NCBI RefSeq assembly: GCF_000482545.1
Contig: NZ_KI519454.1
Location: 1,302,001-1,366,000, forward strand
Direction: 5' to 3'
Length of the DNA: 64,000 nt
Origin: Arthrobacter sp. 35W
GTDB lineage: Bacteria; Actinomycetota; Actinomycetes; Actinomycetales; Micrococcaceae
A program made the position numbers and the translations under genes. Of this stretch, positions 12,282-35,288 are shown in pieces (position 1 is the first letter of the stretch; each line of letters opens with the position of its first letter). A model generated the notes under the pieces. It searched no databases and was not told where the DNA came from. It worked only from the letters and a program-made list of their open reading frames with translations.

Positions 12282-13037
12282 TCACAAGGCGGTCAGGCCG
12301 CCGTCGACGGTGAACAGGCCGCCCGTCGCATACGCCGAGTCGTCGCTGGCGAGGAACACCATGATGCCCTCGACGTCGGCGGCCGTCCCGGCGCGGCCCA
12401 GCATGGTTGAGTCCACCAGGCCGGCCCGGCTGACAGGGTCTGCGGCGATGGTCCGCACCAACGGGGTCTCCGTGTAGCCCGGAACAACAGTGTTGACCCG
12501 GATGCCTTCCCCGGCATAGTCGGCGGCCACCACACGGGCCAGGCCATGGACGCCGGCCTTGGAACTGGAATAGGCGGTGAAGGTTTGTCCGCAGGCAACG
12601 ACGGCGGTGGGGCTGCCGGTGCAGATGATGGAGCCGCCCAGGCCCGCCATGGCCCGGACGGCGTGCTTGAGGGTCAGGAAGGCCCCGCGCTGGTTGATGG
12701 CGACCGTCTTTTCCCAGACCTCCAGGTCCAGGTCGCCCACCCGGGCGTCCTGCCCGAAGAGCTGGACGCCGGCGTTGGCCACGACGATGTCCAGGGGCCC
12801 CTCGGCGGCGATGGTGGCGTAGGCCGCCGCGACGCTGGCCTCGTCGGAGATGTCCATGGCGAGTGCTGTGGACGTGCCGCCAGCGGCATCCGAGGCTGCA
12901 GCTGCAGCGGCGCCATGGTTGATGTCAGCGAAGTAGACACGGGCACCTTCGGCGGCAAAACGCTGTGCCACGGCCAGGCCGATGCCTGAGCCGGCGCCAG
13001 TGACGAGGGCGGATTTTCCTGCAAGTTTGGAAGACAT
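12282..13037 (-). CDS. Short-chain dehydrogenase/reductase; candidate D-apiose dehydrogenase
   Basis: 251-aa classical SDR. Cofactor motif TGAGSGIG is at residues 14-21, FADIN favours NAD(H), then NAG (about 88-90), catalytic Ser (CTGSPTA), and Tyr-x3-Lys in YSSSK with PGYTETP after it. It is the last gene of the long glycoside operon, 27 bp behind apnL. Known D-apiose dehydrogenases that make apiono-1,4-lactone belong to the Gfo/Idh/MocA family, and none is present here. By position this SDR could supply that missing step, giving ApnL its substrate. That role is inference; the family call is firm. Confidence 0.85.
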   Translation of the reverse strand: MSSKLAGKSALVTGAGSGIGLAVAQRFAAEGARVYFADINHGAAAAAASDAAGGTSTALAMDISDEASVAAAYATIAAEGPLDIVVANAGVQLFGQDARVGDLDLEVWEKTVAINQRGAFLTLKHAVRAMAGLGGSIICTGSPTAVVACGQTFTAYSSSKAGVHGLARVVAADYAGEGIRVNTVVPGYTETPLVRTIAADPVSRAGLVDSTMLGRAGTAADVEGIMVFLASDDSAYATGGLFTVDGGLTAL

Positions 13038-13064
13038 CGGTGGTTCTCTTTCGTGGTGGGTGGG

Positions 13065-14801
13065 TCAGCCGAGGCGGACGGCCGTGGCCGAGAAGGCGGG
13101 AAGGGACAGGATGTGGCGCCGGCCGTTGTCGAGGTCGACGGCGGACGTGACCGGAGCAGCGGTGAGGTTGGCCGCGAACAGCACGACGGCGCCGTCGCCG
13201 GCGCGGACGGGGTAGAGGACAAGGCCCGGCACGCCGCCGTCGACGGCCAACACCACGGCGCCGCGCAGGGAGGCGAGGTGGGTGAACAGGCGCCCCGCGG
13301 GGGTTTCGGTGCCTGCCTCGTCCAGCAGGCCGCGGGCGCCGGCGGCCTCGAAGCAGCTCATGGTCTCCACGCCCGGCAGGGTCAGTGCCGCGATGCTGCC
13401 CAGCAGCCAGGCCGCCGTGAAGTCCTCGCCCTGGAGGGGATCGGTGGCTGCCGCACTGTCACTGGTTCCATCGGTGGCGACGGCATTGAACCGGGCCCGC
13501 AGCGTCACGGGGCCGATGTGCAGCGGCCTTCCAGATCCGAGCCGGAGGGCGTTGAGCGCCGTCTGGCGCTGGATGGGCAGCGTCTCGATGATGTGGGCCA
13601 CCTCTGTGGAATGCATCTGCGGGGTGATGCTGTAGACCAGCGCCGGCGCATCCGCGGGCAGCCGGTCGGAGGCCCTGTTGAGTTCCGTGAAGTGCGATCG
13701 GGCGCCCGCCAGCAGCGTCCCGGTGAAGCCGCGGCGCCCCGCCTGCTCGTTCAGTTCCTGCCACAGTGCCGGTTCCGTGACGTGGGTGGCCGAATCGAAC
13801 ACGCCCAGCCGGGTGGTCCGCGCCAGCGGCACCAGATCCAGCAGGCCCGGCAGATCGTCGGGACCGCCGACGGCGAGGCGCACGTCCAGCGGCACGCCCA
13901 GAGCTGCCGCCTGCTCCTGCGCCTGGTGGAGGGCGTCCGCGGCCCCCACCAGGTTGCTTCCGCCAAGTTCCACGAGGAGCGCGTCCATGCCGGGAATCCG
14001 CTGCAGGGGGGCGGCCGAGGTGGACGCCGACGTCGACAGCCCCGGAACGATCCCGGCGCCGTGGCTGCGTACGACCGGGACGCCGGGGTTGAGCGCCCCG
14101 GCGGCGGGGGCCGACCCGGCCGCGGCAGGCACCGCGGCGAGGCGGATGGACTGGTGCACCCTGTCCCCGGCGGCGACGGCCACCGGGAACGGGCGGGACA
14201 AGGGGGTGCTGTAGGTCTTGAAGGAGGCATCGGTCCAGTTCCGCTGGTCCTCCGTCTCGAACGTGTCGCCGTTGAACTCGAGGGAAAAGGCTGTGCCATC
14301 GCGCTTCCAGGCCATCGAGGAGACATCCAGAAATGGCTGGTGCGGGCTGATGTCGGAAGGGAAGCACTGGTCCGCGGCGGAGCCATCCGGCGAGCCGACC
14401 GTGATGGCCCGTCCGGTGTCGTCGGGCCGGTGCAGCACCACCAGCCCGATCCTGTTGCTGGCGAACGCGGCCGGGGCCTCGCCGTCGAACGCGACGCTCA
14501 GCCCGGCGGCATCGACCGATACGGTGAGAACGGCCCGGTAGGCGGCACCCGTTCCCGCGTAGTCGATGTCCAACGCCAGAACGGCGGCGCCGTGCTCCTC
14601 CCGGGTGGCCACGGCCGCCACCGAGGGCGCCAGCGTGCTCCAATTGTGGTCCCGGACCACTGCCCGGATGGCCCGCAGCACAGGACGGCCCCGGTATTCG
14701 ATGTCCGCCAACTCATCCCCGCGGAGCTGGAACCGCCAGGGACCGGAGGCGATGGTTTCAGTGGCGGGGAAGAGCCGGGAGTGGTTCTCCTCAGTGGTCA
14801 C
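13065..14801 (-). CDS. apnL: D-apionate lactonase (ApnL-like)
   Basis: 578-aa cytoplasmic protein with the three-part ApnL layout. An N-terminal beta-sandwich (about 10-210) contains RPVLRAIRAVVRDHNW and the hallmark EDQRNWTDASFKTYSTPL. A TIM-barrel-like middle (about 225-490) has MDALLVELGGSNL and YSITPQMHSTEVAH. A short beta C-terminal domain follows (about 500-578). I know this family as the hydrolase of D-apionolactone to D-apionate in the apiose pathway. The GTG start overlaps the stop of the upstream glycosidase by 4 bp (GTGA), so translation is coupled. The apionate-consuming genes are in the rightward operon at 30.6-35.3 kb. Identification rests on remembered family patterns, not a search. 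Confidence 0.82.
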   Translation of the reverse strand: MTTEENHSRLFPATETIASGPWRFQLRGDELADIEYRGRPVLRAIRAVVRDHNWSTLAPSVAAVATREEHGAAVLALDIDYAGTGAAYRAVLTVSVDAAGLSVAFDGEAPAAFASNRIGLVVLHRPDDTGRAITVGSPDGSAADQCFPSDISPHQPFLDVSSMAWKRDGTAFSLEFNGDTFETEDQRNWTDASFKTYSTPLSRPFPVAVAAGDRVHQSIRLAAVPAAAGSAPAAGALNPGVPVVRSHGAGIVPGLSTSASTSAAPLQRIPGMDALLVELGGSNLVGAADALHQAQEQAAALGVPLDVRLAVGGPDDLPGLLDLVPLARTTRLGVFDSATHVTEPALWQELNEQAGRRGFTGTLLAGARSHFTELNRASDRLPADAPALVYSITPQMHSTEVAHIIETLPIQRQTALNALRLGSGRPLHIGPVTLRARFNAVATDGTSDSAAATDPLQGEDFTAAWLLGSIAALTLPGVETMSCFEAAGARGLLDEAGTETPAGRLFTHLASLRGAVVLAVDGGVPGLVLYPVRAGDGAVVLFAANLTAAPVTSAVDLDNGRRHILSLPAFSATAVRLG

Positions 14802-16579
14802 TGGCCGTCCCGGACGGCGCGCAGGCGGACGGCGATGAACTGCCGTCCGGGCAGCTCAAGCCGGAACCGTCCCTCATACGTCCCCGGCAGTGTCTCGATG
14901 GTCATGTTCCAGGTATCGATGATGTCCACCTCGTACGTCGTTCCGGCGGGCACCACGAAGTGGCGGTAGGTGGGCTGGTTGAAGCCGAAGTAGCTGATCT
15001 CGTACTCGCCGGCCAGTCCGGCGGTGGGAACATCCCAGGGGCTGGGCAGCGGGTCAAGGAATCCGCCCGGCGTCTGCTCCAGGATGTCGCGGAGGAAGCC
15101 GATCCGGTCCGGGCTGGTGCCGTGCAGTTCCCCACCCTTGGCCCACCACAGGATGTCGTCCGGGTGCATATAAGTTTCGCCGTGGCCCACGTAGCCGCCG
15201 CGGATGGCGCCCTCCCAGAAGCGGCGGACCATCTCCTCGCCGGTGATGTTGCCCCAGCCCTGGTCGATGTTGCCCTCGTAGGCGCACTCGTCAATCACCA
15301 CGGGCTTGCGCCAGCGGTCGCGCCACTCGCCGGTGAACTCGGCAGTCTTGTGGACATCCTGGCGCTGGATGCTGCTGTGTGTGATCCACGGCCGGCTGTA
15401 GTCGTAGAAGTCCTGGCAGTTGTGGATGGAGAGCAGGTGGCCGCTGGGGTCGTTCTCCTGGACGATGCCTCCGAAGCGCTCCCAGTCCTCGGTGGTCTTG
15501 CGGAACAGGAGGTCGTACTCGTTGGCCAGGGACCACCAGATGTTGCGGTGCGCGGCGAGGCGCGCCACGACGTATTTCAGGTAGCGGTCGTCCTGGGCCG
15601 GTCCCATGGTGGAGAAGCCCCAGCGGTCGTAGGCGTGGAACAGGATCAGGTCCGCCTCGATGCCGAGTGCGTCCAGCTGGTCGATGCGCAGTTCAAGGTG
15701 CCGGTAGAAGGCCGGGTTGGGGCTGTCGTAGTCGAAGCCCGCCTCGAGGGAACCCTCAAAGGGGTACAGGGCCGGCTCGTTTTCATTGAACAGGTAGGAC
15801 TTGGGGAAGACGCACATGCGCATCTTGTTGAAGGGGCCGGCGGCGAGCGTGTCCAGCGTCGCCTGTTCCAGCGCGTCGCCCTGGTGGGTCCAGACGTAGG
15901 AGGTGGTGCCGATGGGCAGGTAGGGGGTGCCGTCCGCATAGGTGAAGTGGAAGGTGCTGGCCACCTGGACCACGCCCTTGGCGCCGGCGGCGGCTTCGGC
16001 AGCGGTGAAGGAACCGGTGATGGAATCCAGCGAGCGGGCGTTGCTGGTGGTGGTGAACGTCCAGTCCCCGGCGGCCGGAACCAGAAGCCGGACCCGGTAG
16101 CTGCCGTTGCCGTCGTAGAAGCCCGGAACGCTCAGACGGATCCCCGTGGGCGAGGTGAACTCGGCCTTCAGCTCGACGTCGGTGAACGGATTGCCGTGCG
16201 AGGGGCCGGCCAGGAACAGTTCGAAACGCTCCAGCGCAGCGACGGACGCCGGATGTGAGGCCGCCGCGCTGCCGCATTCCACCGTGGCCGGCTCGTAGCC
16301 GGCATCCGGGGCCGCGACGCCGAGGGCGGCCGCCGCGGCGCGCTGGGCATGCGGGTCCTCGGGCTCCAGCTCGCCGAGCAGACGCAGGATGTCCGCCGTC
16401 TCCTCCGGCTTGCCGGCGAGGGCGGCCTCCGTGCCCAGGATGGTGCCCACACCATGGAAATACAGGGTGTGCAGCTGCGGGTTGCTGGTCAGGGTGGGGA
16501 CGCGTTCGCTGAGCAGGCGGTTGCCCTCGGCATGGCGCATCACAAAGTACAGGGGGCTTTCAGCGGTGAAAGTAGTCAT
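14798..16579 (-). CDS. DUF5060-DUF4038-DUF5605 glycoside hydrolase, apiosidase-like
   Basis: 593-aa cytoplasmic glycosidase. After a helical N-terminal region (1-110) comes a beta-sandwich resembling DUF5060 (about 112-185). A TIM-barrel of the DUF4038 type (about 195-505) has likely acid/base Glu in SLANEYDLL (about 354) and nucleophile Glu in VVIDECAYEG (about 431). A DUF5605-like C-terminal sandwich follows (about 515-590). DUF4038 is the catalytic domain of GH140 apiosidases, and the gene is coupled by GTGA overlap to apnL, which fits release of apiose. Start ATG 16579 was chosen for its AAGAAGG site. No signal peptide. Other furanosidase or glucuronidase specificities remain possible. 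Confidence 0.8.
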   Translation of the reverse strand: MTTFTAESPLYFVMRHAEGNRLLSERVPTLTSNPQLHTLYFHGVGTILGTEAALAGKPEETADILRLLGELEPEDPHAQRAAAAALGVAAPDAGYEPATVECGSAAASHPASVAALERFELFLAGPSHGNPFTDVELKAEFTSPTGIRLSVPGFYDGNGSYRVRLLVPAAGDWTFTTTSNARSLDSITGSFTAAEAAAGAKGVVQVASTFHFTYADGTPYLPIGTTSYVWTHQGDALEQATLDTLAAGPFNKMRMCVFPKSYLFNENEPALYPFEGSLEAGFDYDSPNPAFYRHLELRIDQLDALGIEADLILFHAYDRWGFSTMGPAQDDRYLKYVVARLAAHRNIWWSLANEYDLLFRKTTEDWERFGGIVQENDPSGHLLSIHNCQDFYDYSRPWITHSSIQRQDVHKTAEFTGEWRDRWRKPVVIDECAYEGNIDQGWGNITGEEMVRRFWEGAIRGGYVGHGETYMHPDDILWWAKGGELHGTSPDRIGFLRDILEQTPGGFLDPLPSPWDVPTAGLAGEYEISYFGFNQPTYRHFVVPAGTTYEVDIIDTWNMTIETLPGTYEGRFRLELPGRQFIAVRLRAVRDGQ

Positions 16580-16614
16580 CAAGGCCTTCTTGGTTGGCGT
16601 TGGGGTGGTGGCTG

Positions 16615-18126
16615 TTAGTTGGGTTCGCGGCCGGTGCTGCGGAACCACTCGAAGGCGACGCTGCCCCGGGTGGCGAAGACGCCGGCGACCCGTCCGGTGA
16701 AGGAGGCGGCGGTTTCGGCCGAGAGGTAGCGTCCGTCCAGTTCGGCAAGTGTCAGGGCCTCGCCGTCAATGACGGCCTGCAGCGCGATGGTGTCCGAACT
16801 CAAGTGGCCGAAGCCGGTGCCGTGGCCGGGCTGGCGGGTTTCGATGCGCAGTTCCACGGGGGAGTCCGGCACGGGGTGCGTCCAGGTCTGTTCGATCGAG
16901 GCGATCCGCGCCCGGGCCGTGACGGTGGTCCCGCTGAGCTCGATGGAATAGTGGTGCGCCTCGTCGTAGCGGACGGCCAGGCCACCGGCACTGCCCGGGT
17001 GCGCGGTGGATCCGGCGTCCACCAGGGCTGAGATGGTCTCCACCTGGTACTGCTGGCGGCGGCCGAGGAAGGCCGGGCGGGGATCGTCCAGCCCCGAACC
17101 GTCGCCGGCAAGGGTGAGAACGCCGGGGTTCTTCGCCGTCGACGCGAACGTGCCGGGGAAGCGCCGCACGGCGATCCAGCCGCCGTCGAGCTCGTCGGTG
17201 GCGAAGCCGTCCTCGAAACTGCCGCCCCCGGGCCGCGGGTTCAGGATGACGGGCTCGACGACGGGCCAGCCGTCCTCCCACGTGACAGGGGTGATGAAGG
17301 TTTCACGGCCCAGGGCGGAGAAGGCCCGGGTCATGCCCCTGGGCCGCATGCCCAGCAGCACCATGGCCCAGCCGCCGTCGGGCGTCTGCACGAGGTCCCC
17401 ATGCCCGGTGTTCTGGATGGGCCGCTCGGTGCTGCGGGCGCTGAGGATGGGATTGGCCGGGTTGCCCTCGAAAGGTCCGGCGGGGGAGGTGCCGCGGGCG
17501 ATGCTGACGCTGTGGCCGCGCTCGGTGCCGCCCTCGGCGATCATCAGGTACCAGTACCCGCCGTGCTGGTAGAGGTGCGGGGCCTCGGGGAACATCAGCC
17601 CGGTGCCGGACCAGATGCTGCGCGGTTCCTCCAGGGCCTTGCCCGTGGCCAGATCGACGCGGACCTGGAGGATGCCGCCGTGTTCCGCGGCGTTCCCGGT
17701 GACGGTGTCCAGCCCTGAGTACGTCAGGTACGTGGTGCCGTCCCCATCCCAGGCCAGATCCTGGTCGATGCCCACGGCGCCCTCGATGGCCAGTCCGTCG
17801 CTCCACGGACCCGCCGGATTGGTGGCGGTGAACACCAGGGTTCCCCGGCCCATGGCGTCGGTGACGGCAACGTAGAACAGCCCATCGTGGAAGCGGATGG
17901 TGGGTGCCCAGGCGCCGCCGAGCGTGGGCACGTCCCGGGAATCGAGCTGGCCTTCACGGTCCACCACGTGGCCGATCCTGCTCCAGGAGTGCAGGTCGGT
18001 GCTGTGGTAGACGGGGATGCCGGGCAGGTATTCGAAAGTCGAGGTGGCCAGGTAGTAGTCCGCTCCCACCTTGACGATGCTGGGGTCCGGGTTGAAGCCG
18101 GGGATCAGGGGGTTGGGCAGGCTCAT
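16615..18126 (-). CDS. Glycoside hydrolase family 43 (beta-xylosidase/alpha-arabinofuranosidase type)
   Basis: 503-aa five-bladed propeller enzyme. The catalytic base Asp14 is in PGFNPDPS, the pKa-modulating Asp in IDQDLAWDGDG (about 121-123), and the acid Glu181 in LMFPEAPHLY. A C-terminal beta-sandwich (about 310-500, starting at EDGFATDELDGGW) is typical of GH43 subfamilies acting on xylo- or arabino-oligosaccharides. The ATG overlaps the GH3 stop (ATGA), with GGAAGGAA upstream. No signal peptide, so it acts on imported oligosaccharides. In this locus it may trim pentoses from apiose-containing glycans; specificity is not readable from sequence. Confidence 0.88.
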   Translation of the reverse strand: MSLPNPLIPGFNPDPSIVKVGADYYLATSTFEYLPGIPVYHSTDLHSWSRIGHVVDREGQLDSRDVPTLGGAWAPTIRFHDGLFYVAVTDAMGRGTLVFTATNPAGPWSDGLAIEGAVGIDQDLAWDGDGTTYLTYSGLDTVTGNAAEHGGILQVRVDLATGKALEEPRSIWSGTGLMFPEAPHLYQHGGYWYLMIAEGGTERGHSVSIARGTSPAGPFEGNPANPILSARSTERPIQNTGHGDLVQTPDGGWAMVLLGMRPRGMTRAFSALGRETFITPVTWEDGWPVVEPVILNPRPGGGSFEDGFATDELDGGWIAVRRFPGTFASTAKNPGVLTLAGDGSGLDDPRPAFLGRRQQYQVETISALVDAGSTAHPGSAGGLAVRYDEAHHYSIELSGTTVTARARIASIEQTWTHPVPDSPVELRIETRQPGHGTGFGHLSSDTIALQAVIDGEALTLAELDGRYLSAETAASFTGRVAGVFATRGSVAFEWFRSTGREPN

Positions 18127-20654
18127 AGGGTTCCTTCCTGGGTGGAGATGCTGATGGTGGTCTTCAGCGGCAGTTCCGTGACGGAGGTGCCGATGCGAAG
18201 GGTGTAGCCGCCGGGTTCGTAGACCCACCCGTTGTCCCAGTAGGCCAGCAGCCGGGTGGGGATGTCCAGCACGGCCGTGGTGGTTTCGCCGGCCGCCGCC
18301 CAGACGGGCGTGGAGGCAACGAGCCAGCGGACGGGGCGGTCGACGGCGGAGTCGGCGCGTTCGGCGTAGACCTGGACCACCGTCTTGCCGGAACGGGCGC
18401 CGGTGTTGGCCAGGGCCACCACCACGGCGGAGGTGCCGCCGGGTTCCGCCACCGCCGGGGCGTCCACGGAATCAAGCGTCCACTGCGTGTAGCCGAGTCC
18501 GAAGCCGAATTCATAGGCCGGTGTTGCCCCGGCCTTCAGCCAGGCGCGGTAGCCGATGTGGATCCCCTCGTCATAGACCAGCGTGCCGTCGGCGGCGGGG
18601 GTGACGTTGATGACCGGGACGTCCTCCTGGGTGGCCGGCCAGGTGGTGGGCAGCCGCCCGCCGGGCTCGACGGCGCCGGTAAGGATGTCGGTGAGGGCGC
18701 GGCCAAATTCCTGCCCGCCGAAGTAGCCAATCAGGGTCGCGGCCACCTCGCCGCGCCAGGGCATCAGGACCGGGGCGCCGGAGTTCACGACGACGATGGT
18801 GCGCGGGTTGGCCGCGGCAACGGCGTGGACCAGCCGGTCCTGCAGTCCGGGCAGGTCCAGGGAGGTCCTGTCGTAGCCTTCGGATTCCACCCGGGAATTG
18901 GTCCCCACGACCACGACGGCAACATCGGCGCCGCGGGCCGCCGCAACGGCCTCGGCGATGAGTGCCTCGGGGCTGCTGTTGTCCGCCTCGATGCCGATGG
19001 TGATGCTCAGGGCGTTGGCAAGGGCGCCGGTGCGGTCGCTGGTGTCGAGTTCGACGACGACGTCCAGCGGGACGCCGGCCACGGCCGCCACCTCCACGGA
19101 GGCCGAGGGTGGTGCCAGGAACGCCGCGCCCAGATCGGTGCCGGTGGCCACGATGGTGGCTTCGCGCCGCAGGACGCCGTCGACGAAGATCCGCCCGGTG
19201 CCCACGGTGGAGAAGCCCAGACGGATGGTCCCGGTTTCCTCAGGGGTGTAGATGGTGCGGAATTGGACCAGGGCCGAGGACAGGATGGGTGCGTCCCCGC
19301 CAAACCAGACCAGTGCTGTGGAGCGGCGGTCTTCGGCGAAGAGCTCCTCGCCCCCCGCGCCAAGGAACCGAACGCGCAGTCCGGGGCCGCCGGAGACGGG
19401 GTTGGCCAGCTGCTCCAGGGGGAGTTCGGCAATGCCTTCCTGGACCACGGCCCCCACGCTGTAGGAGACCTTGTCAACGCCAAAGGCGGAGCGGATGCCA
19501 TCAAGGGGGGTGACGATCCGTTCGGGGACGACCGTTGCGGATCCGCCGCCCTGGGTGCGGGCGTACCGGGCGTTGTGCCCGATGACGGCAATGCGGGGGG
19601 CCGCTGCCGGATCCAGCGGCAGCACGCCGTCGTTCTTGACCATCACGGTCCCGGCGGCCGAGGCCTCGCGGGCGAAGGCGATGGGGTCCTCGCGGTCCAG
19701 CGGCTCGGCCTGGACGGCGTCGAAGCCCTCCAATGCACCGACCCGCGCGGCGAGCTGCAGGATGCGCAGCACCTTGCGGTCGATGCTGGCCTCGGCCACC
19801 TCGCCGGCGGTGACGGCTGCGACCAGCGCCTCGCCCCACGGCCCTGCCGGGCCCGGCATGACCAGATCCTGGGAGTGGTTGGCGCTGTTGATGCTGCGCA
19901 CGGCCGTCCAGTCGCTGATGACGACGCCGTCGAAACCCCACTCGGAGTTCAAGGGCGTTTCCAGCAGTTCGTTTTCGGTGGCGGTGGCTCCGTTGATCGA
20001 GTTGTAGGCGCTCATGACCAGCCACGCCTTGGACTCGACAATGGCCTTTTCAAAGGCGAGCAGGTACAGCTCGCGCAGCGGCCGCTCGCCGACCCGGACA
20101 TCCACTGTGAAACGGTCGGTCTCGGAATCGTTGGCCACGTAGTGCTTCGGGGTGGCGCCCACGCCGTTGCGCTGCACGCCGGAGACGTAGGCGGCGGCGA
20201 GTTCGGCCGTCAGGACGGGATCCTCGCTGAAGGCCTCGAAGTGCCGCCCGCCCAGCGGGGAGCGGTGCAGGTTGATGGTGGGGCCCAGGACGACGTCGAC
20301 GCCCTTGCGCCGCGCCTCGACGGCGGACGCGGCACCGAGGCGGTCCGCCATGGCAGGATCCCAGCTCGAGCTGATGGCAGCCGCGGAGGGGAAGTTCATG
20401 GAGGGGTGGCGTTCGTCCCAGACCTCCCCGCGGACCCCGGTGGGGCCGTCCGAGACCAGCATGCGGCGAAGGCCGATCTTCGCCATGGGCCACGTGGTCC
20501 AGAAGTCGCGGCCGGTCAGCAGCTGCACCTTCTCCTGGAGGGTGAGCTCGGCCAGCAGCGAGGCCAAGCGCGCTTCGGTGGAGAGGTGCTCGGCGGTGGT
20601 GGTGTTCAAGGCGGTGGTCCCGTCGGTGGTGGAAGGAGAAGTTGCGATGCTCAT
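18123..20654 (-). CDS. Glycoside hydrolase family 3 beta-glucosidase with PA14-like insert
   Basis: 843-aa cytoplasmic beta-glycosidase. An N-terminal GH3 barrel (about 25-330) has the KHY motif (170-172) and nucleophile Asp248 in GVVISDW. The alpha/beta sandwich begins about 375 (AGTVMVKNDGVLPL), is interrupted by a PA14-like beta domain (about 440-580) and resumes at EAVAAARGADVAVVVVG. A fibronectin-III-like C-terminal domain (about 745-840) follows. The start ATG 20654 overlaps the GH1 stop (ATGA); a longer in-frame upstream reading is only the antisense shadow of GH1. PA14 inserts in GH3 enzymes usually shape the aglycone site, consistent with plant glucosides as substrate. Confidence 0.92.
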   Translation of the reverse strand: MSIATSPSTTDGTTALNTTTAEHLSTEARLASLLAELTLQEKVQLLTGRDFWTTWPMAKIGLRRMLVSDGPTGVRGEVWDERHPSMNFPSAAAISSSWDPAMADRLGAASAVEARRKGVDVVLGPTINLHRSPLGGRHFEAFSEDPVLTAELAAAYVSGVQRNGVGATPKHYVANDSETDRFTVDVRVGERPLRELYLLAFEKAIVESKAWLVMSAYNSINGATATENELLETPLNSEWGFDGVVISDWTAVRSINSANHSQDLVMPGPAGPWGEALVAAVTAGEVAEASIDRKVLRILQLAARVGALEGFDAVQAEPLDREDPIAFAREASAAGTVMVKNDGVLPLDPAAAPRIAVIGHNARYARTQGGGSATVVPERIVTPLDGIRSAFGVDKVSYSVGAVVQEGIAELPLEQLANPVSGGPGLRVRFLGAGGEELFAEDRRSTALVWFGGDAPILSSALVQFRTIYTPEETGTIRLGFSTVGTGRIFVDGVLRREATIVATGTDLGAAFLAPPSASVEVAAVAGVPLDVVVELDTSDRTGALANALSITIGIEADNSSPEALIAEAVAAARGADVAVVVVGTNSRVESEGYDRTSLDLPGLQDRLVHAVAAANPRTIVVVNSGAPVLMPWRGEVAATLIGYFGGQEFGRALTDILTGAVEPGGRLPTTWPATQEDVPVINVTPAADGTLVYDEGIHIGYRAWLKAGATPAYEFGFGLGYTQWTLDSVDAPAVAEPGGTSAVVVALANTGARSGKTVVQVYAERADSAVDRPVRWLVASTPVWAAAGETTTAVLDIPTRLLAYWDNGWVYEPGGYTLRIGTSVTELPLKTTISISTQEGTL

Positions 20655-25766: not shown

Positions 25767-25791
25767 CGACAATTCCTTAGGGAGTTCCTGA

Positions 25792-25835: not shown

Positions 25836-25840
25836 GTCCG

Positions 25841-27361: not shown

Positions 27362-27433
27362 CTTCGGTCCCCTTCAGGGTTAGTGGCGTCCACCGTGGAC
27401 GGCCATTGGAAATGACCGTAACAGCAAAAACCA

Positions 27434-27447
27434 ACCAGGTACTAGGT
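27434..27447. promoter_or_regulatory. Candidate TetR operator in the SBP/tetR intergenic region
   Basis: ACCAGGTACTAGGT is an interrupted palindrome (ACC-n2-GTAC-n2-GGT), extendable to AACC...GGTT at 27433-27448. It lies 72 bp upstream of the binding-protein start and 95 bp upstream of the divergent TetR start, where a repressor could control both. Confidence 0.4.
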
Positions 27448-27494
27448 TTTCAACGAAGAGATTGAATCGTTATGAATTGTGACGTCCCGCACAG

Positions 27495-27507
27495 AGGTTG
27501 ACCAATT
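27495..27507. promoter_or_regulatory. Shared GGTTGACCAATT element, copy A (upstream of tetR)
   Basis: AGGTTGACCAATT, 35 bp before the TetR ATG. The same 12-mer is at 29039-29050 and a one-base variant at 28957-28968. It also forms TTGAC-N7-GTCAA (27498-27514). Likely binding site of the nearby FadR-type regulator. Confidence 0.5.
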
Positions 27508-27542
27508 CTGTCAAGAATGGCCAGTCCGCTAGGGTGTTATCC

Positions 27543-28187: not shown

Positions 28188-28194
28188 CGGCCGC

Positions 28195-28944
28195 CTACTG
28201 GGCCGCTTCGAAGCCCGTCAACAGGCGGCCGGATGCGGTTTCCATGTGGGACTGCATGGTTGCCGTGACAGCTGATGGGTCGCGGGCTTCGAGCGCGGCA
28301 AAGATCGCGCGGTGTTCCTTCAGGGCCGCCTCGGCATGGCCTTCGTCCGTCAGGGCCCTGTCGACCCAAATCCGCAGCAGCGACCTGATGCTTTGCAGCA
28401 GCTCCTGGAGGACCTGGTTTCCCGAGCCCTCGGCGATTTCGCGGTGGAAGGCGGCGTCGGCGTCAACGAAGGCGGCAAGATCGCCAAGGCTGTCCGCCAT
28501 GGCCTGCAGATGCTCCCGCATCCTCTCCAATGCCGCGTCATCAATCCGCTCGGCGGCAAGCTGCGCCGCCTGGACCTCCAGTCCGCTGCGCAGTTCAACA
28601 AGCTCCCTGGTCCGGGGGGCGCCGAGCATCATTCCCCAGCTGAGGGTGCGGGGGAGCAGCTCCGAGATGCCTCCGCGCAGGTAGGTGCCGGATCCCGGTC
28701 GGACGATCACGATGCCCATGATTTCCAGTGCGGCCAGCGCCTCGCGCACGGCCGAACGGCCGACGCCCAGGGATGCGGCCAGTTGGCGCTCGGCGGGCAG
28801 TCTCGTACCGATGGCGATGTCACCGCTGGTGAAGTAGGCCAACAGCCGCTCCGCCACTTCGGAAACCACTGAGCCGTGCCCCACGGAGCCGAGGGCGGAG
28901 CTGATTTTTGCTGCCGAATCGGCGGAGTATGTTGACACACTCAC
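28195..28944 (-). CDS. FadR-subfamily GntR transcriptional regulator
   Basis: 249-aa regulator with a winged HTH at about 15-80 (VSEVAERLLAYFTSGDIAIG, LPAERQLAASLGVGRSAVRE, ALEIMGIVIVRPGSGTYL) and an all-helical FCD effector domain (about 95-235). The FCD domain has metal-site residues in FVDADAAFHREIAEGSGN and the terminal HRAIFAALEARD. FCD regulators usually sense small organic or sugar acids, which fits D-apionate or a derivative. Start set at GTG 28944; no strong ribosome site, and a GTG 6 bp downstream is an alternative. Divergent from the MFS-lerK-apnO operon, with a perfect dyad 9 bp before its own start. Confidence 0.87.
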   Translation of the reverse strand: MSVSTYSADSAAKISSALGSVGHGSVVSEVAERLLAYFTSGDIAIGTRLPAERQLAASLGVGRSAVREALAALEIMGIVIVRPGSGTYLRGGISELLPRTLSWGMMLGAPRTRELVELRSGLEVQAAQLAAERIDDAALERMREHLQAMADSLGDLAAFVDADAAFHREIAEGSGNQVLQELLQSIRSLLRIWVDRALTDEGHAEAALKEHRAIFAALEARDPSAVTATMQSHMETASGRLLTGFEAAQ

Positions 28945-28952
28945 AGCGTAGC

Positions 28953-28968
28953 AATTGGTGGACCAATT
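28953..28968. promoter_or_regulatory. Perfect GntR-type operator, copy B (AATTGGT-GG-ACCAATT)
   Basis: A 16-bp site with perfect 7-bp arms. TGGT-n2-ACCA is the usual shape of FadR-subfamily operators. It sits 9-24 bp before the regulator's own start, so autoregulation is likely. Confidence 0.65.
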
Positions 28969-29031
28969 CCCTGAAGGTCGTCGGAGCGGCGGATGACGGC
29001 CTTCAAATATGACGGTTTGAAAATCAAACAC

Positions 29032-29050
29032 GTCAACCGGTTGACCAATT
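29032..29050. promoter_or_regulatory. Operator overlapping the MFS-operon promoter, copy C
   Basis: GTCAACCGGTTGAC (29032-29045) is a perfect 14-bp palindrome. Overlapping it, CGGTTGACCAATT (29038-29050) repeats the element seen at 27495 and 28956. The site covers the -35 hexamer at 29041, a position suited to repression. Confidence 0.6.
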
Positions 29051-29069
29051 TGGATTCCGGATCTATGGT
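29041..29069 (+). promoter_or_regulatory. Sigma-70-type promoter of the apionate operon
   Basis: TTGACC (29041-29046), 17-bp spacer, TATGGT (29064-29069). Predicted start near 29076, giving a leader of about 100 nt before the MFS gene. Good match to the housekeeping consensus. Confidence 0.6.
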
Positions 29070-29176
29070 TTAGATCACAACACTTAGCCACCGGGGATCC
29101 CGCCGGATGGCCTTGGGAATCAGTCCCCGCATCCACCGCTGCATGTGGCCGGGACACCAACCTTCTAGGAGTCAAT

Positions 29177-30538
29177 GTGGACACCGCTCAATCGGTGGTC
29201 GAGAAATCCGCGATCAGAAAAGTCGCGGTGCGGCTGGTGCCGTTCGTGGCCCTCATGTTCTTTATCAACTACCTGGACCGCACGGCCATCTCCTTCGCCG
29301 GCCCCAATGGCATGAACGCGGACCTTGGCCTGTCGGCGGCGCAGTTCGGCTTCGCCTCCGGCGTCTTCTTCATCGGCTACATCCTGCTGGAGGTGCCCAG
29401 CAACCTGGCCCTGCACAAATTCGGCGCCCGCCGCTGGCTCGCCCGCATCATGGTCAGCTGGGGGATCGTGTCCCTGCTCTTCACCTGGGTGGGCAGCGTC
29501 GAACACCTCTATGTACTGCGGTTCATCCTGGGTGTGGCCGAGGCCGGATTCTTCCCCGGCGCCATCCTCTTCCTCAGCCTCTGGGTTCCGTCCCGGCACC
29601 GCAGCAAGATCCTGGCGCTGTTCTACCTGGCCCAGCCCCTGACCACAGTCATCGGCGCACCGCTGGCCGGTGCCTTGATCCAGCAGCACGGCGTCTTCTT
29701 CGGCCTTGAGGGCTGGCGTTTCATGTTCCTCGGCGTGGCCATCCCCGCCATCGTCATCGGCGTGGTGGCCTGGTTCTACCTGGCCGATTCCCCGGCAAAG
29801 GCCAAGTGGCTCAGCGCCGAGGAGAAGGTCTGGCTGACCGGCGCACTGGCGGCGGAAAAGAAGGAAACGGCCGCCGCCAACAAGCACGCCAGCGTCCTGA
29901 CGGTCTTTGGCAACGGCAAGGTCTGGATGCTCTCGGCCATCTATTTCGGTTTCATCTATGGCCTGTATGCGCTGGCGTTCTTCCTGCCCACCATCATCGC
30001 CGGCTTCGAGGGCCTCTACGGCACCAAGTTTGATGTCTTCCAAAAGGGCCTGATCACAGCCATTCCCTACATCCCCGCCGCCGTCGCCCTGTACTTTTGG
30101 TCCAAGGACGCCACCAAGCGCGGCGTCAAGACCTGGCACATCGCACTGCCGGCGCTGGTTGGCGCCCTGAGCATCCCGCTGGCATTGTTCGCCGGATCGC
30201 CCGCCGCCACGATTGTCGTCATCACCATCACGGCCATGTCCATCTTTGCCGCACTGCCGAACTTCTGGACCGTACCCACGCGGTTCCTCACCGGCGCCGC
30301 TGCCGCGGCGGGGATCGCCCTGATCAACACCGTTGGCAACCTCGCCGGATTCAGTGCCGGCTACATCACCGGTTGGCTGAAGGACTGGACGGGCGGCTAC
30401 ACGGTGCCAATGTTCGTCGTCGGCGGCTTCATGCTCATCTCCGCCATCCTCATGGTGGTCCTCAGCCGCAGCGGAATGGCCTCCCCGGCCGAGCCCGCCA
30501 AGGACTTAGCCAACGCCGGCCGCCGCAGCAAGGCATGA
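29177..30538 (+). CDS. MFS transporter, anion:cation symporter-like (candidate D-apionate carrier)
   Basis: 453-aa protein with about 12 predicted helices. The ACS-family opening FVALMFFINYLDRTAISFA is at about 23-41. GVAEAGFFPGAILFLSLWVPSRHRSK carries the loop 4-5 signature of sugar-acid carriers such as the tartrate/glucarate/galactonate group. A cytoplasmic loop follows helix 6 (ADSPAKAKWLSAEEK). GTG start with TAGGAG 5 bp upstream; the nearby ATG is out of frame. First gene of the rightward operon (carrier, lerK, derI, lerI, decarboxylase, apnO). The context suggests uptake of apionate or a related acid. Confidence 0.87.
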   Translation: MDTAQSVVEKSAIRKVAVRLVPFVALMFFINYLDRTAISFAGPNGMNADLGLSAAQFGFASGVFFIGYILLEVPSNLALHKFGARRWLARIMVSWGIVSLLFTWVGSVEHLYVLRFILGVAEAGFFPGAILFLSLWVPSRHRSKILALFYLAQPLTTVIGAPLAGALIQQHGVFFGLEGWRFMFLGVAIPAIVIGVVAWFYLADSPAKAKWLSAEEKVWLTGALAAEKKETAAANKHASVLTVFGNGKVWMLSAIYFGFIYGLYALAFFLPTIIAGFEGLYGTKFDVFQKGLITAIPYIPAAVALYFWSKDATKRGVKTWHIALPALVGALSIPLALFAGSPAATIVVITITAMSIFAALPNFWTVPTRFLTGAAAAAGIALINTVGNLAGFSAGYITGWLKDWTGGYTVPMFVVGGFMLISAILMVVLSRSGMASPAEPAKDLANAGRRSKA

Positions 30539-30611
30539 ACGGCCGCGCGGCACCCGCCGGCTCCACCCTCCCAAAGATGAATTCCGCTACGACTAGTCCA
30601 GGAAACTCCTC

Positions 30612-32369
30612 ATGACCCGACTCTTCAATGAACCCACAGCCTTCGCCGACGAAATGATTGACGGCTTTGTGGCCTCCCACGGCCGCTGGGTCAAGCGCGT
30701 CGCCGGGGGAGTGGTCCGCAGCACGCGGAGCACTCCGGGCACGGCCGCGCTGGTGATCGGCGGCGGCTCCGGCCACTACCCGGCCTTCGCCGGACTCGTC
30801 GGCCAGGGGCTGGCCCACGGAGCCGCGATGGGCAATCTCTTCGCCTCGCCGTCGGCCCAGCAGGTGTACACGGTGGCCAAGGCGGCCAGCAATGGCGGGG
30901 GAGTTCTGCTTGGCTATGGCAACTACGCCGGCGATGTGCTCAACTTCAACCAGGCCCAGGACCGCCTGCACGCCGAGGGCATCGACTGCCGCAGCATTGC
31001 CGTCACCGACGATGTCTCCAGCGCCCCTGTGCAGGAACGGTCCAAGCGCCGCGGCATTGCCGGCGACTTGACCGTCTTCAAGGTGGCCGCCGCTGCCGCC
31101 GAGGCGGGCCTCTCCCTGGACGAGACGGTCATCATCGCCGAGCGCGCCAACGAGCGCACCCGCTCCTTCGGCGTCGCCTTCACCGGCTGCACCCTGCCGG
31201 GCGCCGAGAATCCGCTCTTCTCCGTCCCCGAGGGCCGCATGGCCGTGGGCATGGGCATCCATGGCGAACCAGGCATTGGGGAGTCTGGGATCCCGACGGC
31301 GGATGGACTGGCCGAGCTCTTGGTGGCCCGCCTCCTTCAGGAGGTCCCCGAGGATCTGGTCCAGGCTTCCCCCGCCGGCCGGCGCGTGGTGCCCATCCTC
31401 AACGGACTGGGCAGCGTGAAGTACGAGGAACTCTTCGTCGTCTACCGCCGGGTGGCCCAGCTGCTTGCCGACGCGGGCCTGGAAACCGTGGATCCGCAGG
31501 TTGGCGAACTAGTGACCAGCTTTGACATGGCCGGCGTTTCGCTGACCCTGTTCTGGCTCGATGATGAACTTGAAACGCTGTGGCACGCGCCCGTCGACGC
31601 GCCCGCCTTCCGCCGCGGTGCCGTCACAGCGGCTCCGCTGGACACCGTGGTGGACGACGCCGTGCCGGCCGAAGCCGTGGCAGCCATCCCGGAGGCCAGC
31701 GAGGCCTCCCGGGCCGGCGCCATCCGGGTCCTGGCCGCACTCGGTGCAGCGAAGGACGTCGTCGACGCCAACGCCGGTGAGCTGGGCCGCATCGATGCCA
31801 TCGCCGGCGACGGCGACCACGGGATCGGCATGGAACGCGGCGTCCGTGCCGCCGTCGGCGCCGCAGCCGACGCCGTCGCCCGCGGGGCCGGTGCTGCCAC
31901 AACCCTTCACCTGGCCGCCGATGCCTGGGCCGACAAGGCCGGCGGTACGTCCGGCGTGTTGTGGGGCCTGGCCCTGCGGGCCGTCGGTGATGCGCTCGGC
32001 AACACTGACGCCCCGAGCGCTGGCACCGTCTCGGCCGGTGTGGCCGATGCCGCCGCGGCCATCATGGAGTTCGGCAAGGCCAAGCCCGGGGACAAGACCC
32101 TCGTGGACGTCCTGGTTCCGTTCCGCGACGCCCTTGCCTCCGCTGTGGATGCCGGGCAGCCACTCACCAGCGCCTGGGGCTCTGCCGCCATCGCCGCCCA
32201 GCAGGCGGCCGACGACACCGCCGGGATGCTGCCCCTTATGGGCCGCGCCCGCCCCCACGCCGAGAAGAGCCTCGGCACCCCCGATGCCGGTGCCGTGTCC
32301 ATGGCGCTGATCGTCCACGCAATCCACACCACCCTCACCGAGGGCACCAAAATCAAGGAGACAGCATGA
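30612..32369 (+). CDS. lerK: L-erythrulose kinase (DhaK-DhaL fused, LerK-like)
   Basis: 585-aa ATP-dependent ketose kinase of the dihydroxyacetone-kinase family. DhaK part (about 1-335): GGGSGHYP at 50-57, and the covalent substrate-binding His217 in GIHGEPG. DhaL part (about 365-580): the Mg-ADP site GDGDHG at 399-404, GGTSGVLWG and [15 protein letters not shown]. Dihydroxyacetone kinase is the alternative reading. The immediate overlap with RpiB-like and TIM-like isomerases and the decarboxylase/ApnO genes matches the published L-erythrulose route, where LerK makes L-erythrulose 1-phosphate. The stop overlaps the next start by ATGA. Confidence 0.85.
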
Positions 32370-32836
32370 GCGCCAAACTGCGCCTGGTCATCGGGTCCGA
32401 TGACGCCGGGTTCACCTACAAGGAGGCACTGAAGGCGGATCTTCTGGCCAGCGGCCTCGTCGAATCCGTTGTTGATGTCGGTGTGGATGCCAGCGCCCAC
32501 ACCCCATATCCGTCGGTCGCCATCGCCGCCGCCGAGCTCATTGCCGCCGGCAAGGCCGACCGCGCCCTGCTGGTCTGCGGAACGGGGCTGGGCGTGGCTA
32601 TCGCGGCCAACAAGGTTCCCGGCATCCGCGCGGTCACGGCCCACGACAGCTTCTCCGTGGAGCGCTCCGTCCTAAGCAACAATGCCCAGGTTCTGACGTT
32701 CGGCGAGCGGGTGGTCGGCCTGGAGCTGGCCCGCCGGCTCGCCCGGGAATGGCTCACCTACACCTTTGACGAGACGTCCGCCTCGGCGGACAAGGTCACA
32801 CTGATTAAGGACTACGAGGGTGTCACTTCCTGCTAA
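32366..32836 (+). CDS. derI: D-erythrulose 4-phosphate isomerase (DerI, RpiB/LacAB family)
   Basis: 156-aa aldose-ketose phosphate isomerase. The RpiB fold shows [10 protein letters not shown] at 11-20, HTPYP at about 45-49, the catalytic Cys71 in [16 protein letters not shown] and His93 in TAHDS. RpiB itself uses ribose 5-phosphate. In the erythrulose pathway the DerI relative interconverts D-erythrulose 4-phosphate and D-erythrose 4-phosphate, which then enters the pentose phosphate pathway. Placement between lerK and lerI, with overlaps on both sides, supports DerI over RpiB. Confidence 0.83.
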
Positions 32837-33647
32837 GCCTGCCGCCATCGTCGGCGTCAGCCTGAAGATGTACTTCGGCCATGCGCGCACACTGGACTAT
32901 TGCCGGGCGGTGGCCGCCCTCGCCGCCGCACACCCTGCCGTCCAGCGCGGCGACATCGAACTGTTCATCCTGCCCAGCTTCACCGCGCTGCCGGAATCGG
33001 CCGCGCTGCTGGCCGGCTCCGGCGCTGCAGCCGGAGCCCAGGACATCTTCTGGGAGGACGAGGGCGCCTACACCGGCGAGGTCAGCGGCACGACGATCGC
33101 CGAACTCGGTGGCCGGTATGTGGAGGTGGGCCATGCCGAGCGCCGGCGGATCTTCGGCGAGGACGATGACGTCGTCGGGCTGAAGACAGCTGCCGCCTAC
33201 CGCAACGGGCTCGTCCCGGTCCTGTGTGTGGGCGAACCGCAGCAGGGATCGGCGGTCCAGGCCATCGCGCACTGTGTCAGGGAGATCGATTCGGCCTTGA
33301 CCCGCGCCGCCAGCCTTGGGCTGGCCGGCCGGACCATCGTCGCCTATGAACCCCAGTGGGCCATCGGCGCCGCAGAGCCGGCAACCCCAGCCTTCATCGG
33401 CGAGGTGGTCCGCGGCATCGATGCGCACCTGCAAACCCTTCCCGGACAGGCCGCCAGCCGTGTCATCTACGGCGGCAGCGCGGGACCCGGGCTCATCGAC
33501 CAGCTGGACACCGCCGTCGCCGGGCTCTTTCTGGGGCGCTTCGCCCACGATCCACAGGCCCTGACGGCCATTCTCGACGAGACCACCGAGCGCCTGGCGC
33601 TGCACTTTGGAGCGGGGGTGGCCTCATGGGCTCAACCATCGGCCTGA
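32820..33647 (+). CDS. lerI: L-erythrulose 1-phosphate isomerase (LerI, triosephosphate-isomerase family)
   Basis: 275-aa TIM-barrel isomerase starting at GTG 32820, inside derI (17-bp overlap). Catalytic Lys16 is in VGVSLKMYF, His105 in VGHAERR and Glu177 in [10 protein letters not shown]; the phosphate loop is YGGSAGPG. The canonical TIM Asn two residues before Lys is Ser here, as in the GVSLK version I associate with LerI rather than housekeeping TpiA. Predicted to convert L-erythrulose 1-phosphate to D-erythrulose 4-phosphate. A housekeeping role in glycolysis is unlikely given the operon. Confidence 0.84.
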
Positions 33648-34426
33648 GCAGCTACGCCTTCTTCTGGCAGCTCTCGGAGCACGTGTCCCAGCCGCTGAGC
33701 ATCCACCAGGCCCTGGAACGGTCCGCAGCTCTAGGCGTGGAGTTGTTCCAGATCTGCGACTACGCTCCGCTTGAATCGATGACTGATGCGGAACTGGCCC
33801 AGGTGCGGGCCACAGCGGATTCGCTGGGTATCGGGCTGGAACTGGGCACCAAGGGCATCGCGCCGGAGCATCTGCGCAGGTTCCTGCGGATCGCCGGGAT
33901 CCTCGGTGCGCCGCTGCTGCGGACCATGTTCAACGTCCCGGGCCATGCGCCGTCGGCGGATGAGGCCGTGGAGATCTTCACCGAGGTCCTGCCGGAATTC
34001 GAGGCAGCCGGGGTCAAGATCGCCGTCGAAACCTACGAGCAGGTGCCAACCTCCCGGATTCTGGAGGTCATCCGCCGCGTGGGCGACCCATCCCTGGGCA
34101 TTTGCGCCGACCCTGCCAACACGGTCGCGGCCCTGGAGCTGCCGAACCCGGTGATCGACGCCGTCGCGCCCTATGTCCTGAACATGCACATCAAAGACTT
34201 TGCGTTCAGCCGCAAGGAGGGGTGGGTCGGATTTACGTATTCCGGCGCGCCGCTCGGGGAGGGGCTTCTCGACTATGACTACATGGCCGGGATGTTCCGC
34301 CCCCACGAAAGAAACATCAACCAGATCGTCGAACACTGGCTGCCGTGGCAGGACTCGGAGGCGGAGACCATCCGCCTCGAAAACCAGTGGACCCAGCAAA
34401 GCCTCGATTTCCTAAGGAGCAAGTGA
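33626..34426 (+). CDS. oiaC: 3-oxo-isoapionate decarboxylase-like protein (xylose-isomerase-type TIM barrel)
   Basis: 266-aa protein of the AP-endonuclease-2/sugar-isomerase superfamily. [13 protein letters not shown] is at 7-19, then LFQICDY, the metal-ligand candidates KIAVETYEQ, GICADPANT and NMHIKDFAF, and the terminal QSLDFL helix. ATG 33626 lies within lerI (22-bp overlap); the longer reading upstream is lerI in another frame. In the D-apionate pathway a member of this superfamily decarboxylates 3-oxo-isoapionate to L-erythrulose, named OiaC as I recall (OiaX being the RuBisCO-like enzyme). The lerK/lerI/derI/apnO neighbours make this the best assignment. Confidence 0.75.
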   Translation: MGSTIGLSSYAFFWQLSEHVSQPLSIHQALERSAALGVELFQICDYAPLESMTDAELAQVRATADSLGIGLELGTKGIAPEHLRRFLRIAGILGAPLLRTMFNVPGHAPSADEAVEIFTEVLPEFEAAGVKIAVETYEQVPTSRILEVIRRVGDPSLGICADPANTVAALELPNPVIDAVAPYVLNMHIKDFAFSRKEGWVGFTYSGAPLGEGLLDYDYMAGMFRPHERNINQIVEHWLPWQDSEAETIRLENQWTQQSLDFLRSK

Positions 34427-34427
34427 A

Positions 34428-35288
34428 ATGTCAGCAGCAGAATTGACCGTCGCAGTCGTCGGAGCCGGTGGAAAAATGGGCATGCGCGTGTCCGCCAACC
34501 TCCAAAAGAGCGCCCACACCGTCTACTACAGTGAAAACTCGCCCGCCGGCCAGGACCGGGTCCGCGCCGAAGGCCGCGAGATCACAGCCACGGACGACGC
34601 CGTCAAGGGCGCCGACGTCGTGATCCTCGCCGTGCCCGACACCCTTCTAGGCATCATCTCCGAAGGCGTCGTTCCCCAGATGAAGCCCGGCGCCATCCTC
34701 TTGACGCTGGACCCGGCCGCCGCCTACGCGGGGCTGCTGGCCAAGCGCGATGACGTGGTCCAGGCCGTAGCCCACCCGTGCCACCCGTCTGTGTTCCTGG
34801 AGCGCACCACCAAGGAGGAATGGGCCGACACCTTTGGCGGCCAGGGCGCCCCGCAGAACGTCGTTGCCGCCATTGATGAAGATGCCTCCGAGGCCGCCCG
34901 TGCCGCGGCCGAGGCCACCATCAAGGTCATCTACGCCCCCGTGATCGACGTCCACTGGGTCACCGTGAAGCAGCTGGCCATCCTGGAGCCCACGCTCGTG
35001 GAGACTGTCGCCTGCATGATCGGCACCCTGCTGAACGAGGCCCTCCACGAGACCATCCACACCGCCGGAGTTCCGGAGGCGGCCGCCAAGGCCATGCTGT
35101 TCGGCCACGTGCAGATCGCCCTGACCAACGCCCTGCGCGGCTCCAACCCGTTCTCCGAGGCCTGCGAAATCGCCATCCAGTACGGGCGGGACACCATCAT
35201 CAAGGACGACTGGAAGAAGATCTTCGACGATTCCGAGCTCGACGGCGTGATCGCCAAGATGCTCAAGCTGGAGACCATCAACCGGTAG
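34428..35288 (+). CDS. apnO: D-apionate oxidoisomerase (ApnO-like)
   Basis: 286-aa NAD-dependent enzyme with an N-terminal Rossmann domain (VAVVGAGGKMGMRV at 8-21; GADVVILAVPD) resembling 6-phosphogluconate/KARI-type dehydrogenases. The C-terminal helical domain has AHPCHPSVF, KQLAILEPTLVETVACM and the FGHVQIALTNALRG block. I recognise this as the ApnO family, which oxidises and rearranges D-apionate to 3-oxo-isoapionate. It starts 2 bp after the decarboxylase gene, is last in the operon, and is followed by a 12-bp hairpin. Together with apnL in the other operon it links lactone hydrolysis to the erythrulose steps. Confidence 0.82.
   Translation: MSAAELTVAVVGAGGKMGMRVSANLQKSAHTVYYSENSPAGQDRVRAEGREITATDDAVKGADVVILAVPDTLLGIISEGVVPQMKPGAILLTLDPAAAYAGLLAKRDDVVQAVAHPCHPSVFLERTTKEEWADTFGGQGAPQNVVAAIDEDASEAARAAAEATIKVIYAPVIDVHWVTVKQLAILEPTLVETVACMIGTLLNEALHETIHTAGVPEAAAKAMLFGHVQIALTNALRGSNPFSEACEIAIQYGRDTIIKDDWKKIFDDSELDGVIAKMLKLETINR

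Follow-up and report, generated by a model that had tools for sequence, protein, structure and literature searches.

A probable GntR-controlled regulon for apioside and D-apionate catabolism in Arthrobacter sp. 35W

Within a 64,000-nucleotide stretch of the Arthrobacter sp. 35W genome (contig NZ_KI519454.1, positions 1,302,001 to 1,366,000; here called the window, whose own numbering is used below), two operons probably form one GntR-controlled regulon for the use of apiosides and D-apionate, a variant of the known D-apiose/D-apionate pathway. On the minus strand (27361 to 12282) lie genes for a solute-binding lipoprotein, OppB, an OppC-OppD fusion, OppF, members of glycoside hydrolase families 1, 3, and 43 (GH1, GH3, and GH43), an apiosidase-like protein, an ApnL-like protein, and a short-chain dehydrogenase/reductase (SDR). 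On the plus strand (29177 to 35288), a gene for a major facilitator superfamily (MFS) carrier is followed by genes of the DAK, RpiB, TIM, AP_endonuc_2, and PGDH_C families, which overlap or abut from the DAK gene onward. A TetR gene and a GntR/FCD gene sit between the two operons. Gene content, similar operons in other genomes, co-occurrence, and operator-like sites common to both operons were computed; from these we infer every catalytic step, the substrates, the role of the SDR, and the match of regulator to operator. On balance, we also favor the broader view that Actinomycetes rebuilt D-apiose catabolism: an SDR takes the place of the Gfo/Idh-type enzyme and accompanies a distinct lactonase clade, and one FCD-type GntR regulator with the conserved operator ACCGGTTGACCAATT controls the pathway and, in some strains, the import of intact apiosides and their cytosolic breakdown as well.

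Comparative evidence came from two surveys. The genome survey covered 297 genomes drawn from the order, with thresholds of E 1e-70 for the SDR, E 1e-10 for ApnL-like proteins, and E 1e-60 for ApnO. The locus survey took the 80 best of 578 confirmed loci, all of them named; 69 are actinobacterial by title (L136 included) and 11 come from other organisms. Here, absence of a gene means absence within the flanks examined. Locus thresholds were at least 50% over 200 amino acids (aa) for the SDR, at least 33% over 250 aa for ApsD-type Gfo/Idh enzymes, and at least 35% over 250 aa for apiosidase-like proteins. A sequence-only reading of this DNA had proposed a complete two-operon route from plant apiosides to D-erythrose 4-phosphate, and the open reading frame (ORF) list together with profile scans verified the frames and protein families that it named: the apnL-like gene and the lerK-, derI-, lerI-, decarboxylase-, and apnO-like genes of the plus strand are where it had put them. 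The SDR, GntR, and TetR genes were likewise confirmed as gene content, although that reading had left these three out of its reasoning. Mechanical ORF starts lay too far upstream for several genes and were revised by means of start codons and alignments of relatives, giving likelier starts for the genes encoding GH3 (20654), GH43 (18126), the apiosidase-like protein (16579), OppF (22996), and the OiaC-like protein (33626).

The plus-strand operon would carry D-apionate to D-erythrose 4-phosphate. Its last product, an ApnO-like D-apionate oxidoisomerase (34428 to 35288; PGDH_C, 191 bits), matches its Erwinia counterpart (L003) at 64% (63.9%) and a Cupriavidus necator protein (L006) at 42.2% over 275 aa. 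The best PDB match is 5t57 (E 1.8e-63), which we take to be the published ApnO; the C. necator protein is identical to it over the aligned range, the first residue excepted. One base upstream ends the gene for a predicted OiaC-like 3-oxo-isoapionate decarboxylase (33626 to 34426; AP_endonuc_2 by Pfam, 56% to L003). No NCBIfam match was obtained for this protein, but its barrel gene sits between those for LerI and ApnO, as expected for OiaC; in other loci, OiaC lies near ApnO (L003 and L004) or OiaK does (L005). Preceding it are genes for a LerI-like isomerase (32820 to 33647; Pfam TIM, 52% to L003), a DerI-like isomerase of the RpiB family (32366 to 32836; TIGR02133, 201.6 bits against a cutoff of 168.2; 48% to L003), and a LerK-like L-erythrulose kinase of the DAK family (30612 to 32369; 65% to L003), which scores 728 bits against a cutoff of 492 for PRK14479, a family without a stated sugar specificity. 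The other TIM copy in the genome is only 35% alike and the two other RpiB copies only 33% alike; thus, the operon's own copies look specialized. The MFS carrier (29177 to 30538) is likely an apionate-type permease, with 71% and 69% to the carriers of ApnO operons in Erwinia (L003) and Paraburkholderia (L005), respectively. Among the 69 actinobacterial loci, ApnO was found in 50, OiaC in 49, LerK in 39, and DerI in 38. In Microbacterium rhizomatis (L078), the right end of the locus holds an RLP/OiaX-like gene (50%) and, at the very end, an OiaK-like gene (46%) near the OiaC-type cluster, and both branches may coexist there.

The ApnL-like protein (13065 to 14801, minus strand) appears to belong to a separate actinobacterial clade of lactonases that shares the core motif of curated ApnL. 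Its only NCBIfam match is the D-apionate lactonase model NF049900 (E 2.8e-53), and it had no Pfam match at E 0.001. Fourteen of 21 examined positions (R117, E182, E184, D185, R187, N188, W189, D191, K195, Y197, N375, H397, D454, and W465) are invariant in all 84 aligned proteins, curated ApnL included, and the window protein carries the core motif FExEDQRNWxDxSxKTY (and others). In a tree of 46 alignment rows, unrooted in effect, the 31 actinobacterial rows that include the window protein form one group (100/100), outside which lie proteobacterial, Bacteroidota, Verrucomicrobia, and other rows. The Acidimicrobiaceae protein of L136 falls just outside this group and joins it on one side of a branch (99/96). 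Position 485 (numbering of the window protein) is occupied by Glu in 67 of the 70 actinobacterial proteins and in 10 of the 14 others, and the difference from curated ApnL at this position may mark a mechanistic one. Of three control proteins scored with NF049900, those of L005 (a Paraburkholderia plasmid; 770 bits) and L007 (a Roseibium plasmid; 917 bits), both encoded beside Gfo/Idh genes, passed the cutoff, while that of L008 (Paroceanicella; 623 bits), encoded beside a gene annotated denD, failed it.

The SDR (12282 to 13037, minus strand) is the best candidate for the D-apiose 1-dehydrogenase and would represent a nonorthologous replacement of ApsD. It has the Pfam SDR domain, and N114, S141, Y155, and K159, presumably the SDR catalytic set, are invariant in 14 homologues. 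ApnL-like proteins occurred in 27 of the 297 genomes, ApnO in 34, and the SDR in 22, and every genome with the SDR also had both ApnL-like and ApnO proteins (22/22). ApnO was present in 25 of the 27 genomes with an ApnL-like protein (Fisher 1e-26; the genomes are related, hence this is no clean probability). The SDR was found in 55/69 actinobacterial loci and 0/11 others, and ApsD-type Gfo/Idh enzymes in 1/69 (L136) and 4/11, respectively; none of the 80 loci had both. By mechanical ORF ends, the SDR and apnL genes lie within 300 bp of each other in 53/55 loci, on the same strand in 49 of those 53, and in 2 of the 22 genomes (G031 and G047) the SDR is hundreds of kilobases or more away from ApnL. 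In the window, none of the 20 genes scanned (12282 to 39255) gave a Gfo/Idh match. An ApsD elsewhere in the genome was also considered and set aside: there were 18 Gfo/Idh matches, the best with 28% identity. The SDR profile had no PDB match at a threshold of E 1e-60.

Three ApnL regions that lack a nearby SDR (L055, L081, and L121) share a PF01370 epimerase-type protein, with the copies 73 to 92% alike. These proteins weakly resemble the denD product of L008, and the L053 frame compared with them is unrelated. There is thus a hint, and only a hint, that a PF01370-type protein could be a third dehydrogenase; the idea is weakened by the presence of the SDR at another place in the L055 genome (G031).

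The two operons are also tied together by an operator-like site. The 12-mer GGTKGACCAATT, with up to one mismatch, occurs in the window only at 27496, 28957, and 29039 (0.42 expected; three sites were reached by 1 of 100 shuffles). The plus-strand site at 27496 to 27507 (GGTTGACCAATT) lies between tetR and the importer/glycosidase operon, that at 28957 to 28968 (GGTGGACCAATT, plus strand) roughly 19 bases upstream of the probable start of gntR, and that at 29039 to 29050 (GGTTGACCAATT, plus strand) before the MFS operon. The last overlaps the -35 element (29041) of the one promoter-like match in 27340 to 29200 (0.3 expected) and would therefore fit repression. Across the 4.66 Mb genome, GGTKGACCAATT has four copies, three of them in the window; the fourth is inside a gene with a pyridoxal phosphate-decarboxylase domain and was taken as chance. 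The pattern GGTNGACCAATT yielded 47 sites in 41 of the 80 loci, all actinobacterial (41/69 versus 0/11 others); the reversed pattern gave none, and 200 letter-shuffled patterns gave a mean of 0.21 and a maximum of 6. Most sites (42/47) fall between 450 bases before and 60 bases after the predicted start of gntR, MFS, lerK, derI, oiaC, SDR, or apnL, with 6 of those 42 preceding SDR-ApnL or apnL. One of the five remaining sites, in Arthrobacter celericrescens (L062), precedes the SBP_bac_1 gene of a different importer, downstream of which, on the same strand, follow a permease gene and then apiosidase-like-ApnL-SDR. A first guess at the operator, the palindrome GTCAACCGGTTGAC, showed no enrichment in the window with mismatches allowed (5 found, 3.4 expected), and the shorter pattern was chosen afterwards.

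The GntR regulator (28195 to 28938, minus strand; start at 28938 or 28944; Pfam GntR and FCD) is predicted to act on both operons, and a homologue of at least 45% is present in 43/69 actinobacterial loci. Its position points to it as the protein that would bind these putative operators. The TetR-type regulator beside the importer operon (27543 to 28187, plus strand; Pfam TetR_N), with homologues of 47 to 69% in the ApnL regions L061, L073, L045, L071, and L115, is a possible second regulator for that operon.

The upstream half of the minus-strand operon encodes an Opp-type importer: a solute-binding lipoprotein (25841 to 27361; SBP_bac_5, 234 bits by Pfam; lipobox-like LAGC N terminus) that likely binds apiosides, an OppB-type permease (24825 to 25772; BPD_transp_1), an OppC-OppD fusion of permease and ATPase (22993 to 24828; OppC_N, BPD_transp_1, and ABC_tran), and an OppF-type ATPase (22136 to 22996; ABC_tran, start set by inspection). 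Homologues of the binding protein occur within five ApnL regions (L061, 84%; L045, 64%; L073, 56%; L115, 48%; and L044, 40%). The GH1 beta-glucosidase (20651 to 22087) passes TIGR03356 (557 bits; cutoff, 478.5), the GH3 glycosidase (18123 to 20654) falls below NF052330 (728 bits; cutoff, 1300), and the GH43 protein with a GH43_C2 domain (16615 to 18126) has a Pfam score of 280 bits; no signal peptide was seen by eye in these three. A simple scan (no signal-peptide predictor was run) found a strongly hydrophobic N terminus in none of the four glycosidases, the apiosidase-like protein included, which are apparently cytosolic. Because the binding protein has a lipobox-like N terminus and the glycosidases lack a hydrophobic one, import before hydrolysis would be the simplest reading. 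Rhamnosidase, GH42, or GH3 genes were also noted among hand-picked frames of the ApnL regions L039, L045, L080, and L065.

The apiosidase-like protein (14798 to 16579, minus strand) has the architecture DUF5060-PF13204-DUF5605, with a PF13204 score of 60.5 bits against a cutoff of 26.5, and 68% homologues immediately precede ApnL-SDR in L059 and L062. A profile of 13 such proteins matched 4n0r, an uncharacterized hydrolase, at E 4e-142 and 8t9w, a named apiosidase, at E 2.9e-7; the glutamate of its conserved NE motif (E354) aligns with Asp in 8t9w, and E431 aligns with Glu. Since it is closest to 4n0r and distant from 8t9w, with Glu facing the Asp of the latter, we regard it as a relative of apiosidases and as a candidate apiosidase only. 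Its structure model (mean pLDDT, 70.8) was too poor for a fold search. The same genome holds two further PF13204 genes outside the window (G000:C1:1384655-1385413 and G000:C2:1829348-1830118).

Directly 3' of apnO, a plus-strand gene (35436 to 37205) encodes a secreted-looking protein with a twin-arginine-like N terminus by eye, a Laminin_G_3 domain, and a weak match to metallophosphoesterases; nothing seen connects it with the pathway.

Several observations weigh against a single apioside/D-apionate regulon. With NF049900, the ApnL-like protein scores 181 bits against a cutoff of 750 and so does not reach the curated equivalog threshold; no solved relative was matched in the PDB by sequence, and curated proteobacterial ApnL (L005 and L007) has Ala or Ser at position 485, unlike the window protein. 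The DerI-like protein passes a ribose-5-phosphate isomerase model (TIGR02133) and fails the DerI model NF051858 (140 bits; cutoff, 240), although the Erwinia DerI homologue is also below that cutoff (183 bits). Nine of the 34 ApnO genomes lack ApnL, 5 of the 27 ApnL genomes lack the SDR, and, by our own thresholds, 13/69 actinobacterial loci (7/11 others) have neither SDR nor ApsD. Importer homologues occur in only 3/69 actinobacterial loci and apiosidase-like genes in 13/69; therefore, the upstream half of the system is variable. The genome and locus sets partly overlap (L121/G105, L068/G183, and L084/G270), and because some genomes and loci coincide, the two surveys are not independent. Finally, the operator-like motif was found in the window before it was tested elsewhere.

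One rival account holds that the ApnL-like protein is no lactonase but a retaining glycosidase, and perhaps the apiosidase of the pathway. The AlphaFold model (mean pLDDT, 92.7) has glycoside hydrolases as its best Foldseek matches, at modest TM scores (0.24 to 0.29 by query length for the GH97 type and 0.37 to 0.40 for GH30; a resemblance to GH79 was also noted). Glu373 and Glu485 follow barrel strands at what we take to be the acid/base and nucleophile places of clan GH-A, and the Ala or Ser at 485 in curated proteobacterial ApnL points the same way. The 14 invariant positions nonetheless extend across all 84 proteins, curated ApnL among them; Glu373 is replaced by Asp, Asn, or Gln in 5/14 nonactinobacterial members; and the gene keeps its place beside the dehydrogenase and ApnO genes, often with neither an importer nor an apiosidase homologue in the flanks examined. 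A glycosidase thus seems quite improbable. That the plus-strand operon instead serves tetritol/erythrulose catabolism, with its ApnO- and OiaC-like proteins acting on another sugar acid, we judge very improbable. LerK, LerI, and DerI are enzymes of a tetritol route (PMC10733421), and the low DerI score leans the same way; however, ApnO and OiaC homologues share the operon here, in Erwinia, and in Pantoea and recur in the actinobacterial loci at the frequencies given above, the operator-like site is common to the ApnL operon, and the SDR is confined to genomes with both ApnL and ApnO.

A third account is unlikely as well: the glycosidase operon would target other plant glycosides (xylosides, arabinofuranosides, or glucosides), with ApnL-SDR captured at its end. 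GH1, GH3, and GH43 are common families, which counts in its favor, as do the distance of the apiosidase-like profile from 8t9w and the two further PF13204 genes. Against this, the apiosidase-like gene abuts ApnL-SDR also in L059 and L062, importer homologues lie in the ApnL regions L044, L045, L061, L073, and L115, and the operator-like site stands before this operon and before the different importer operon of L062.

We therefore retain the single-regulon reading, and with it much of the earlier proposal. Both the steps from apionolactone to erythrose 4-phosphate and the link between the two operons have good support from comparable operons in other genomes, from co-occurrence, and from the common operator-like site. 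To call the route complete was to pass over the oxidation of apiose to apionolactone; the SDR is now the candidate for this step. The genes and pathway outline of a whole apioside locus hold; its ApnL lies, strictly, outside the curated family, in contrast to ApnO, which stays within its own, and its "apiosidase" stands as a domain match but not as an identity. In the preferred mechanism, the ABC importer would take up small apiose-bearing plant glycosides, from which the cytosolic GH1, GH3, GH43, and apiosidase-like enzymes would release D-apiose. The SDR would oxidize C1 of D-apiose, giving D-apionolactone, whose ring the ApnL-like enzyme would open, and the MFS carrier would provide an additional entry for D-apionate. 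ApnO, OiaC, LerK, LerI, and DerI would then convert D-apionate via L-erythrulose to D-erythrose 4-phosphate. The GGTKGACCAATT sites upstream of gntR and of the two operons would be bound by the FCD-type GntR protein, most likely a repressor that a pathway intermediate releases.

If this is right, four features are new: the SDR, the lactonase clade of actinobacteria, the operator-like site, and a single regulon that links the uptake and hydrolysis of apiosides to the pathway. Apiose is found in pectin (rhamnogalacturonan II) and many plant secondary metabolites (PMC11747546), and the operator-like site and SDR-ApnL pair could serve as a marker for soil and leaf actinobacteria that use apiose. 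The locus also offers testable candidates with practical value: an importer of apiosides, an apiosidase whose subtype differs from that of 8t9w, and an apiose dehydrogenase from another family. In the open-licence literature, no paper among the matches listed described an actinobacterial version of the pathway, and none was found that combined apiosidase with 8T9W. The matches listed for oxo-isoapionate, ApnO, ApnL, and OiaC were unrelated uses of the letters, and those for apiose with Arthrobacter were unrelated as judged by title.

The D-apiose and D-apionate pathways of Carter et al. 2018 reportedly comprise ApsD, ApnL, ApnO, OiaC, OiaK/OiaX, LerK, LerI, and DerI. The step order and the families of ApnL, ApnO, OiaC, LerK, LerI, and DerI are alike in the window, which differs in having an SDR in place of the Gfo/Idh-type ApsD, a divergent ApnL clade, and operator-like sites for an FCD-type GntR, and which adds cytosolic glycosidases and an Opp importer to the same predicted regulon. 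The Carter et al. pathway is cited in PMC6302742. Erwinia sp. E602 and Pantoea sp. At-9b have the order MFS, LerK, LerI, OiaC, ApnO on plasmids, with rpiB divergent, whereas in the window it lies between lerK and lerI. PMC11747546 describes growth on D-apiose of Rhodobacteraceae strain LCG007, in which genes for an apionolactonase, an apiose dehydrogenase, and ApnO are clustered and which has the OiaK branch. According to PMC10733421, EltD together with LerK, LerI, and DerI allows an Escherichia coli transketolase mutant to grow on L-threitol or erythritol by making erythrose 4-phosphate. The last three steps of that tetritol pathway are the same as those predicted for the window; its entry is from erythritol or threitol, without ApnL, ApnO, or OiaC, unlike the regulon proposed here.

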